A DNA stretch of 64,000 bases, taken from an uncultured Bacteroidota bacterium (GTDB lineage Bacteria; Bacteroidota; Bacteroidia; Flavobacteriales; Flavobacteriaceae). Made by a program: the position numbers and the translations under genes. The stretch's first letter is position 1, and each line of letters begins with the position of its first letter. Below, piece by piece: positions 23,047-26,953 of this stretch. Under the pieces are notes generated by a model. That model was not told the origin of the DNA. It saw only the letters and a program-made list of their open reading frames with translations, and made no database searches. Location: contig CACCIQ010000002.1 of the NCBI GenBank assembly GCA_902546095.1, positions 49,321 to 113,320 on the forward strand. Direction: 5' to 3'.

Positions 23047-24321
23047 ATGAGTAACACCAAAAAAATTTTTGATTTAATAAAAAAAGAGGAGCAAAGACAG
23101 CTTTCTGGAATTGAATTGATTGCTTCTGAAAATTTTACAAGTCCTGACGTTATGAGCGCCTGCGGCTCAGTATTAACAAATAAGTATGCAGAAGGCTATC
23201 CTGGAAAAAGGTATTATGGAGGATGTGAAGTTGTTGATGAGATTGAAAACATTGCGATTGAAAAAGCAAAAGTATTGTTTGGAGCTGAGTATGCTAATGT
23301 TCAGCCCCACTCAGGAAGCCAAGCCAATGCAGCCGTTTTTCATGCTTTTTTGCAACCAGGTGATAAATTATTAGGTTTTGATCTCGCACATGGTGGACAT
23401 TTAACTCATGGGTCAAGTGTAAATTTTTCAGGTACTTTTTATAAAACATCATTTTATGGAGTAGAGAAAGAAACTGGATTACTTAACTATGATAAAATAA
23501 ATGATATTGCAAAAAAAGAGAAGCCAAATATGATCATAGCAGGAGCATCAGCGTACTCTAGAGATATGGATTTTAAAAAATTTAGAGAAATTGCTGACTC
23601 AGTTGGTGCCTTTTTATTAGCTGATATTTCACATCCATCAGGTTTAATTGCTAAAGGTTTATTAAATAGTCCTATTCCACATTGTCATGTAGTAACAACA
23701 ACCACTCATAAAACTCTGAGAGGACCAAGAGGAGGTCTAATTTTAATAGGAAAAGATTTTGAAAACCCATTTGGTATTAAGTTTAAAAGTGGAAAATTAA
23801 AGATGATGTCAAATCTTGTTGATCTAGCTGTATTTCCTGGAAATCAGGGTGGACCACTCGAACACATTATCGGTGCAAAAGGTATTGCATTCGGTGAAGC
23901 TTTACAGGATTCATTTTTAAACTACATTACTCAAGTTAAAATGAATGCAGATTCAATGTCAAAAGAGCTGGTCAAAAGAGGGTATAATATTATTTCGAAT
24001 GGAACAGACAATCATATGATGCTAATTGATTTGAGAAATAAAAATATTACTGGAAAAGATGCTGAAAAAGCATTGGTTTTAGCTGATATTACTGCAAATA
24101 AAAATATGGTTCCATTTGATGATAAATCTCCTTTTGTAACATCAGGTATTAGGTTTGGAACACCAGCAATCACAACCCGGGGATTAAAGGAGAAAGACAT
24201 GGAAAAAATTGTTGAATTAATTGATAGTGTTATAATTAATTATAACGATACCAAAATGATAAAAAAAATAAAAAATGAGGTTAATGAATTTATGTCAAGT
24301 AGACCTCTTTTTATTGCTTAA
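23047..24321 (+). CDS. glyA: Serine hydroxymethyltransferase
   Basis: 424 aa; [46 protein letters not shown]. Confidence 0.97.
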
Positions 24322-25324
24322 AGATTTCAATCTCAAATATTTTATCCCACTTTTTTCCGGTAACAAAAAAGGTTTTTCTATCCTTGTTGTAAGCTATCCC
24401 ATTTAAAACATCGAGTTCAGGATGTTGTTTTACCCTGTCTCTCAATCCTTTAAAATTAATAACACCATTTACAGCACCTGTATTCTTATCAATAATTAAA
24501 CCTATATCATTATTAAGTTGGTAACTATTTGCATAAATTTTGTTATCAACAATCTCTAATTCATTTATGTCTTTAATTTTTTTATTGTTAGTTACAACTT
24601 CAATAAAATCAATTTCCTCATATGTTTCTGAGTCTAAAATCCATATTCTTTCACTTCCATCAGATTTAAATATATTTTTACCATCATTTGCTAAACCCCA
24701 TCCCTCAATACTATCTTCATAATCAAAAGAACCTAACATTTCTAGAGAATTCAAATCATATATAAAACCAATTTTATTTTTCCATGTTAGTTGTAAAATT
24801 TTATTATTAATTATAGTCAGTCCCTCCCCAAAATACTGATTATCTAAAAATCTTTTTTCTAAAACTTTATTATTGAAGACATCAAGTTTTTTTAGAGAGG
24901 AAAAACCATTTAGACCTGTGGATTCATATAAAAAACCATTATGAAATTCTAGACCTTGTGTATAGGATGAAATATCATGAAAATACTCATTGATAATTTT
25001 GTATGAATAGAGACTAGGGTTAGTGGAGGTGTAAACATCTATTTTTTTTGATACTGTGAAATTAGATTTTGAATTAATAATTTCAGCCACTATCTCATTT
25101 GTTCCTAGTTTAGCGCTCTTCAAATTTATGTTGGACTCGATAGGTTTATCATTTAAAAAAAAACTTACTGAGGATTCACTTTCATTGATAACTTCACTTA
25201 ATGAAAGTTTAATATTAGAATTTTTAGTTAGAATTTGATCATTAGAATCAATAATAATCTTGTAATCTATTGGATTTTGACCACATGAAAAAAAAAGAAT
25301 TGAAAGTAAAATTATCAGTCTCAT
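24311..25324 (-). CDS. Glutaminyl-peptide cyclotransferase, lipoprotein
   Basis: [16 protein letters not shown] lipobox; [44 protein letters not shown]-track N-terminus beyond 25324 overlaps the SRP RNA and is rejected. Confidence 0.88.
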
Positions 25325-25374
25325 AATTTGATTTGATAAAATTAAATAATAATAAACATTTATTAAAACATAAC

Positions 25375-25382
25375 TATATTTG
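25375..25382 (+). promoter_or_regulatory. Bacteroidota -7 element TATATTTG upstream of SRP RNA
   Basis: Exact TAnnTTTG match ending about 5 nt before the predicted RNA 5' end at 25387. Confidence 0.65.
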
Positions 25383-25386
25383 TATT

Positions 25387-25482
25387 GGGCAGGGCTTATG
25401 CAACCAGCTCCCATTGAATCCCCCAGGGTGGGAACGCAGCAAGGGTATATGGTCGTAGCGGTGTGATATAAGTTACTTGCCC
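25387..25482 (+). ncRNA. ffs: Signal recognition particle RNA, small bacterial type (4.5S)
   Basis: GGGCA...UGCCC closing helix with CUUAU/AUAAG continuation, apical CCCCCAGGGUGGGAACGCAGCAAGGGUA (GUG-GGAA-CGC tetraloop hairpin plus AGCA internal loop of domain IV). Confidence 0.93.
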
Positions 25483-25489
25483 TTTTTTT
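25483..25489 (+). terminator. U7 tract following the SRP RNA closing helix
   Basis: TTTTTTT immediately 3' of CTTGCCC. Confidence 0.6.
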
Positions 25490-26296
25490 ATGACAAAAAT
25501 TGTTTTAATTACAGGAGCATCCTCTGGAATCGGTAAGACAATAGGTGAGTATTTAATCCAGAAAAATTATAAAGTTTACGGAACATCAAGAAATCCATCT
25601 AAATATAAAAACAGTACTATTAATTTGATTAAGTCAAACATTAATCTCAAAAATGATATTACTGAATGTCTAAATTATGTATTTCAAAAAGAAGGTAAAA
25701 TAGACATATTAATTAATAATGCTGGTATTGGATTCACAGGACCAATTGAAGAATCAAACTTATCAGATGTAGAGAGTTTATTTAAAACAAATTTTTTTGG
25801 CCCCCTTGAAATGATAAAAAAGGTTTTACCAATTATGAGAAAGAATGGGGGAGGATTAATAATAAACATAACATCAATAGCTGCATACATCGGACTACCC
25901 TTTAGAGGAATTTATTGTGCATCAAAAAGTGCATTAGAAATTATAACAGAATCTTTGCGAATGGAAGTTAAAGATTTTAATATAAATATTGTAAATATTG
26001 CTCCTGGTGATTTTAAGACTGATATAGTTAAAAGAAGGATAGATTCATTTAATGATAAAAATTCTTTATACTTCAACAAATACTATAGATTATGGAAAAA
26101 AATGAATGATCATGTTGAAAAAGCTGGAAGTGATCCAAAAATGATTGCTAAATTGGTTTATAAAATTATTAACAAGAAAAAACCAAAAATACATTATGTC
26201 ATAGGTACAAGATTCCAAAAGTTTTCTATAATTTTAAAAAGATTATTACCTGACCTTATTTTTGAAAAAATATTAATTAAATACAACAAACTATAA
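25490..26296 (+). CDS. Short-chain dehydrogenase/reductase
   Basis: 268 aa; VLITGASSGIGKTIGEYL, INNAGIGFTGPIEE, YCASKSALEIITESLRMEV. Confidence 0.93.
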   Translation: MTKIVLITGASSGIGKTIGEYLIQKNYKVYGTSRNPSKYKNSTINLIKSNINLKNDITECLNYVFQKEGKIDILINNAGIGFTGPIEESNLSDVESLFKTNFFGPLEMIKKVLPIMRKNGGGLIINITSIAAYIGLPFRGIYCASKSALEIITESLRMEVKDFNINIVNIAPGDFKTDIVKRRIDSFNDKNSLYFNKYYRLWKKMNDHVEKAGSDPKMIAKLVYKIINKKKPKIHYVIGTRFQKFSIILKRLLPDLIFEKILIKYNKL

Positions 26297-26953
26297 ATGA
26301 AATTTTTTGTCGATACTGCTAATCTAAAAGAAATAGAGGAAGCTCAATCTCTTGGAATTCTTGATGGAGTTACAACGAATCCGTCACTAATGGCAAAGGA
26401 GGGTATTACTGGAAGTAAAAACATAATTAATCATTATAAAAAGATTTGTGAAATTGTAACTGGAGATGTTTCTGCAGAAGTTATTTCAACTGATTTTGAT
26501 GGTATAGTTAAAGAAGGAAAAGAGTTGGTAGCTTTACATGAACAAATTGTAGTAAAAGTTCCAATGATTTCTGAGGGGATAAAAGCAATTAAGTACTTTT
26601 CTGAAAATGGAATCAAAACAAATTGTACTCTCATTTTCTCCGCAGGTCAAGCATTGTTAGCTGCTAAAGCAGGAGCTACTTATATTTCACCTTTTATTGG
26701 AAGAATTGATGATATTTCCTCTAATGGTATAGAATTAATTTCAGAAATAAGAATGATTTTTGATAACTACAATTTTGAAACAGAAATATTAGCAGCTTCG
26801 ATAAGAGGACCAATGCACATTATTGATTGTGCGAAAATTGGTGCTGATGTGGTTACTACACCCCTTAAATCAATTAAAAGCCTATTGAACCACCCTTTGA
26901 CGGATATTGGTTTAGAAAAATTTCTTAATGATTATAAAAAAGGGAATAAATAA
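26297..26953 (+). CDS. Transaldolase / fructose-6-phosphate aldolase-like (short form)
   Basis: 218 aa; MKFFVDTANLKEIEEAQSLGILDGVTTNPSLMAKEG, KVPMISEGIKAIK, NCTLIFSAGQALLAAKAGATYISPFIGRIDD. Confidence 0.94.
   Translation: MKFFVDTANLKEIEEAQSLGILDGVTTNPSLMAKEGITGSKNIINHYKKICEIVTGDVSAEVISTDFDGIVKEGKELVALHEQIVVKVPMISEGIKAIKYFSENGIKTNCTLIFSAGQALLAAKAGATYISPFIGRIDDISSNGIELISEIRMIFDNYNFETEILAASIRGPMHIIDCAKIGADVVTTPLKSIKSLLNHPLTDIGLEKFLNDYKKGNK

Follow-up and report, generated by a model that had tools for sequence, protein, structure and literature searches.

The SRP RNA gene (ffs) of this uncultured member of the Flavobacteriaceae runs straight into the start codon of a short-chain dehydrogenase/reductase (SDR) gene on the same strand, which raises the question of how the SDR gene is transcribed. 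We addressed this question in a 64 kb window, the whole stretch of DNA analysed, and by comparing ffs loci within the genus and across the family.

Organization of the ffs-SDR junction

The SRP RNA occupies 25387..25482 (+ strand) from helix to helix, as placed by an MFE fold with its closing helix and by Rfam model RF04183 (Bacteroidales_small_SRP), which matches 25380-25486 over model positions 1-107 with 99.9 bits (E 1e-19; gathering cut-off 55.2), identifying a small SRP RNA of the Bacteroidales type. It is single copy, with one match in its own assembly (1.07 Mb, ~60% complete). The -7 promoter box of ffs, TATATTTG, an exact match that the first-pass annotation had pointed out, lies at 25376..25383 (+), and TAnnTTTG is found 3-5 nt upstream of the ffs helix in 128/129 family loci. 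Downstream, the closing helix ends in CCC at 25482 and gives way to a T7 tract (25483..25489, +), so that a stable stem and a T run form an intrinsic terminator whose U-tract is at the same time the entire ffs-SDR spacer: the SDR ATG begins at 25490. The direct contact of helix, T7 and ATG without intergenic space had been claimed from the sequence at the outset, and its coordinates proved exact. Consensus scans for sigma-70 promoters and terminators returned nothing beyond what shuffled sequences gave; the generic terminator scan misses this one, being restricted to loops of 3-8 nt. The eighth pair of the closing helix (25387-25394 / 25475-25482) is broken, a G/A that is also non-standard in the Rfam alignment. 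The 3' end of ffs reads TTACTTGCCC in 18/18 loci of the genus, the usual family form being TAGCTTGCC.

The SDR ORF (25490..26296, +) matches adh_short (PF00106, E 1.3e-44) and carries TGASSGIG at residues 8-15, the TGxxxGIG motif of a classical SDR. Its N-terminus, MTKIVLITGASSGIG, bears out the earlier argument that the Rossmann motif fixes the start, and the equivalent start residue is found in all members of the genus. The best NCBIfam match is KdsR (3-ketodihydrosphingosine reductase, NF049977), at 235.5 bits against a curated cut-off of 400; we therefore describe the protein as KdsR-like, under the family cut-off, and do not assign it to sphingolipid/sulfonolipid synthesis. A transaldolase-like gene (26297..26953, +) starts 0 nt behind the SDR stop, as had been noted; its product matches PF00923 (E 4.8e-60) and scores 300.2 bits against the curated cut-off of 245.95 for fructose-6-phosphate aldolase/TalC (TIGR00875; TalC/FSA). 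A candidate promoter box for this gene is occasionally present inside the SDR gene and is not conserved.

To the left of ffs lies a divergent glutamine cyclotransferase gene (24311..25324, - strand; PF05096, E 1.6e-82), a conserved neighbour. Its longest ORF (24311-25414, -) begins inside ffs, and relatives favour the start at 25324; at its other end it is convergent with a serine hydroxymethyltransferase gene, the two 3' ends sharing 11 nt (24311-24321). No tRNA or tmRNA genes were found in the window (1-64000).

Conservation of the junction within the genus

The closest named records are uncultured marine Bacteroidetes single cells and MAGs (AG-916-G20, AG-349-C04, MED-G61 and MED-G118), and the SDR of AG-916-G20 is identical at the protein level. 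Genomes of the genus are small, at 0.9-1.5 Mb assembled. We compared 19 same-genus ffs loci, one of which ends at a contig edge, leaving 18 informative. In every one of the 18, the distance from ffs helix to SDR ATG is 7-8 nt, made up of T6-T8 and one extra base at most; the T run behind ffs thus varies in length from 6 to 8. The junction between the SDR and transaldolase-like genes is 0 or -1 nt. The abutment of ffs and SDR is therefore not a chance event, and the conserved spacing that the first-pass annotation had hoped for in relatives holds at genus level.

The SDR gene is intact throughout the genus (267-268 aa), and six pairwise comparisons, five of which had synonymous sites below saturation, gave dN/dS of ~0.05-0.13. 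These values indicate purifying selection, from which we infer that the gene is still transcribed, expressed and used. Because intergenic DNA is absent and the SDR gene is clearly functional, its transcription in the genus comes down to the two options first put forward, a promoter inside ffs or read-through of the ffs terminator.

Spacer length and promoter-like boxes across the family

Outside the genus we collected 110 Flavobacteriaceae ffs loci, drawn from the best-scoring matches, 109 of which entered the size statistics. The SDR gene lies behind ffs on the same strand and within 300 nt in 99/109 of these best-scoring loci, and the usual order is divergent glutamine cyclotransferase, ffs, SDR, transaldolase-like gene. 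Two loci from wider searches, both from genus g129 (L074 and L083), have an ffs-SDR gap of >1 kb. In some loci from other families of the order and from other orders of the class, a transaldolase-like gene stands directly behind ffs without an SDR gene (L054, L055, L058, L073, L077, L085, L096), and the linkage of ffs to this gene therefore looks the older one. This distribution suggests that in Flavobacteriaceae the SDR gene sits between two partners whose linkage is old in the class.

Spacer length rises with genome size (Spearman 0.57, p 6e-10, where species are non-independent and the p value is indicative only). The median spacer is 15 nt in genomes below 2.0 Mb, 54 nt at 2.0-2.6 Mb, 72 nt at 2.6-3.5 Mb and 88.5 nt above 3.5 Mb, and most larger-genome relatives have 40-200 nt between ffs and SDR. 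Bizionia paragorgiae and Zeaxanthinibacter sp. PT1, for example, have the same SDR gene behind ffs on the same strand, but with spacers of 77 and 182 nt that hold TAnnTTTG or T[AT]nnTTTG boxes before the SDR gene (L187 and L191, respectively). Elsewhere in the family, one genome of 1.9 Mb (L159) and one of 4.9 Mb (L037) have zero spacing too, and this layout thus probably arose more than once.

To score promoter-like elements of the sigma-A type we used T[AT]nnTTTG or ATnTTTG, a relaxed form picked after viewing the spacers. Such a box is present in 29/33 spacers of 70-110 nt (10.2 +/- 2.7 in shuffles), 17/23 spacers longer than 110 nt (10.4 +/- 2.4), 10/25 of 40-70 nt (5.3 +/- 2.0) and 1/5 of 20-40 nt; it was found in none of 13 spacers shorter than 20 nt. 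The strict TAnnTTTG alone is mildly enriched (13/81 against 6.7 +/- 2.3). The last TTTG mostly lies 5-10 or 15-20 nt upstream of the SDR ATG and, since the box-to-start distance in F. johnsoniae is 4-5 nt (PMC6847099), mRNAs of the first group would be near-leaderless and those of the second would have leaders of ~10-16 nt. A TTATTTGTTAATTTGCA-like element ending 5-10 nt before the SDR ATG recurs in one set of larger-genome relatives (L041, L043, L035, L103, L113 and others), and predicts near-leaderless SDR mRNAs in that group.

Because most larger-genome relatives have long spacers, many with a promoter-like element, zero spacing is a derived state that results from genome reduction. The idea that it is a conserved device does not survive the comparison, as the spacer tracks genome size. 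The choice between a promoter in ffs and read-through stands within the genus. Further out, the circumstance that the first-pass annotation itself had named as refuting does occur, since most larger-genome relatives have 40-200 nt spacers and many of these hold a promoter-like element of their own. An SDR promoter present in the ancestor was probably lost by deletion as the genome became streamlined.

Search for a promoter inside ffs

With a promoter within ffs, SDR transcription could begin in the T-tract whether or not ffs terminates, and the mRNA would be leaderless or nearly so. We searched for one as TTTG, A..TTTG, T[AT]..TTTG, TA...TTG and TAnnTTGY, the last being SM5, a second motif of F. 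psychrophilum found at -12 to -5 (PMC9723704), and none of these forms was supported. In none of 117 loci do the final 90 nt of ffs contain A..TTTG or T[AT]..TTTG; no sigma-A type box lies within any ffs body, or where a leaderless SDR mRNA would need one.

The SM5-like form requires closer attention. The genus has TTACTTGC at the ffs 3' end, which differs from the F. psychrophilum SM5 motif (PMC9723704) at a single base and whose position would set the start ~5 nt before the SDR ATG; the near-leaderless SDR mRNAs implied in some larger-genome relatives, where the last TTTG falls 5-10 nt before the ATG, lend this arrangement some plausibility. However, an exact TAnnTTGY at the ffs 3' end is found in 74/81 long-spacer loci, where it is unneeded, in 9/18 other short-spacer loci and in 0/18 loci of the genus, the reverse of what is expected of a replacement for a lost promoter. 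This match to SM5 is probably incidental to the SRP stem. Leaderless mRNAs also make up only 5.5% in F. psychrophilum (PMC9723704), and in B. thetaiotaomicron ~3.7% of leaders are shorter than 10 nt (PMC7366714). We consider a promoter inside ffs unlikely, though it is the strongest competitor to read-through. A genus-specific TTACTTG in ffs (TTA.TTG in 18/18 genus, 0/18 other short-spacer and 1/81 long-spacer loci) was also considered as an evolved promoter and rejected, as it reflects one ancestral event in a near-invariant stretch beside the non-standard helix pair.

Proposed expression of the SDR gene by read-through

With the spacer promoter gone and no box in ffs supported, what remains is the ffs promoter, the exact box of which is kept in 128/129 loci, and read-through. 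We therefore favour read-through, alone or with cleavage, over a promoter in ffs, a preference drawn from comparative sequence data. The further suggestion at the outset, that ffs dosage is coupled to the SDR and transaldolase-like genes, found no support. Two observations speak against it: the ffs terminator is unweakened and the initiation context of the SDR gene is poor. Weakening was sought in the short-spacer lineages and not found; the closing helix of the other short-spacer lineages is equally strong or stronger, with a median of -13.6 versus -11.9 kcal/mol and a value of -12.3 kcal/mol for the genus, and T-runs are equally long. In a read-through RNA a stable helix would end 7 nt upstream of the SDR AUG. 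Positions -3 and -6 are U in 18/18 genus loci, whereas long-spacer loci have A there in 47% and 40%, respectively. Work on F. johnsoniae found A to be favourable at -3, -6, -12 and -13, and U to be rarer at -3 in well-translated genes (Baez et al., PMC6847099). This poor AUG context is the chief argument for the leaderless alternative; it also makes it plausible that translation is low or that cleavage leaves a very short leader.

Taken together, we assign a probability of roughly 0.58 to loss of the spacer promoter by genome reduction followed by SDR transcription through ffs read-through, possibly with cleavage. The ancestral state would be an old co-directional neighbourhood of ffs, SDR and transaldolase-like genes in Flavobacteriaceae, in which the SDR gene was probably transcribed from a sigma-A type promoter of its own, located in the spacer downstream of the ffs terminator. 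Deletion in this streamlined marine genus, and independently in a small number of others, would have taken the spacer together with this promoter and spared only what is indispensable, the U-tract of ffs and the ATG of the SDR gene. The SDR gene would now most likely be driven by the ffs promoter through partial read-through of the terminator, giving an RNA that starts with ffs; a cut at the junction may then separate mature ffs from an SDR-transaldolase mRNA whose predicted leader is ~7 U or less. A more demanding version, in which ffs of streamlined marine Flavobacteriaceae is the obligatory 5' part of all SDR mRNA and much of the transaldolase mRNA, with cleavage in the U-tract and a fixed ratio of SRP RNA to SDR, is one we would put forward only tentatively.

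A simpler account holds that ffs, SDR and transaldolase-like genes are merely co-transcribed as a single primary RNA, that nothing functional follows from this, and that their abutment is neutral compaction. The scaling of spacer with genome size, the similarly tight SDR-transaldolase junction of the genus (0 or -1 nt) and the dense packing of the 64 kb window all agree with it. It departs from the read-through explanation only by denying coupling or processing and is otherwise nearly indistinguishable from it; as a separate account we think it rather improbable, somewhat more so than a promoter in ffs. Expression from another, unrecognised promoter type or from an internal start codon is very improbable: three non-sigma-A motifs do serve 7% of F. 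psychrophilum TSSs (PMC9723704), but an internal start would be expected to destroy the fold, as the domain match places the Rossmann strand from residue 3, and the SDR start is conserved in 18/18 genus loci.

Relation to known systems and implications

A protein operon co-directional behind an SRP RNA gene is also found in Borrelia burgdorferi, where the promoter of dnaX-ebfC was mapped by fusions to just within the end of the SRP RNA gene (PMC9879097). That locus differs in its unrelated genes and its leader of ~179 nt, as compared to 7 nt and no recognisable promoter here. In F. psychrophilum, partial termination at predicted intrinsic terminators was described for 67 transcribed regions (PMC9723704); these 3'-PT regions resemble our proposal in that leaky termination feeds downstream transcription, but the available part of that report names no SRP RNA example among them. 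Our literature search found no direct precedent for read-through from an SRP RNA into a downstream gene. The arrangement is thus a product of genome shrinkage acting on a very common neighbourhood, a compact form of known arrangements and not a new kind of system.

In practice, ffs ends and SDR starts in such genomes need to be annotated jointly. If read-through is correct, the family would offer a natural series of promoter loss through genome reduction, with spacers from ~200 nt down to 7 nt, and a test case for translation initiation right behind a stable RNA in bacteria without Shine-Dalgarno pairing. In the streamlined genus itself, a gene that lost its own promoter would have been left dependent on a housekeeping RNA gene.
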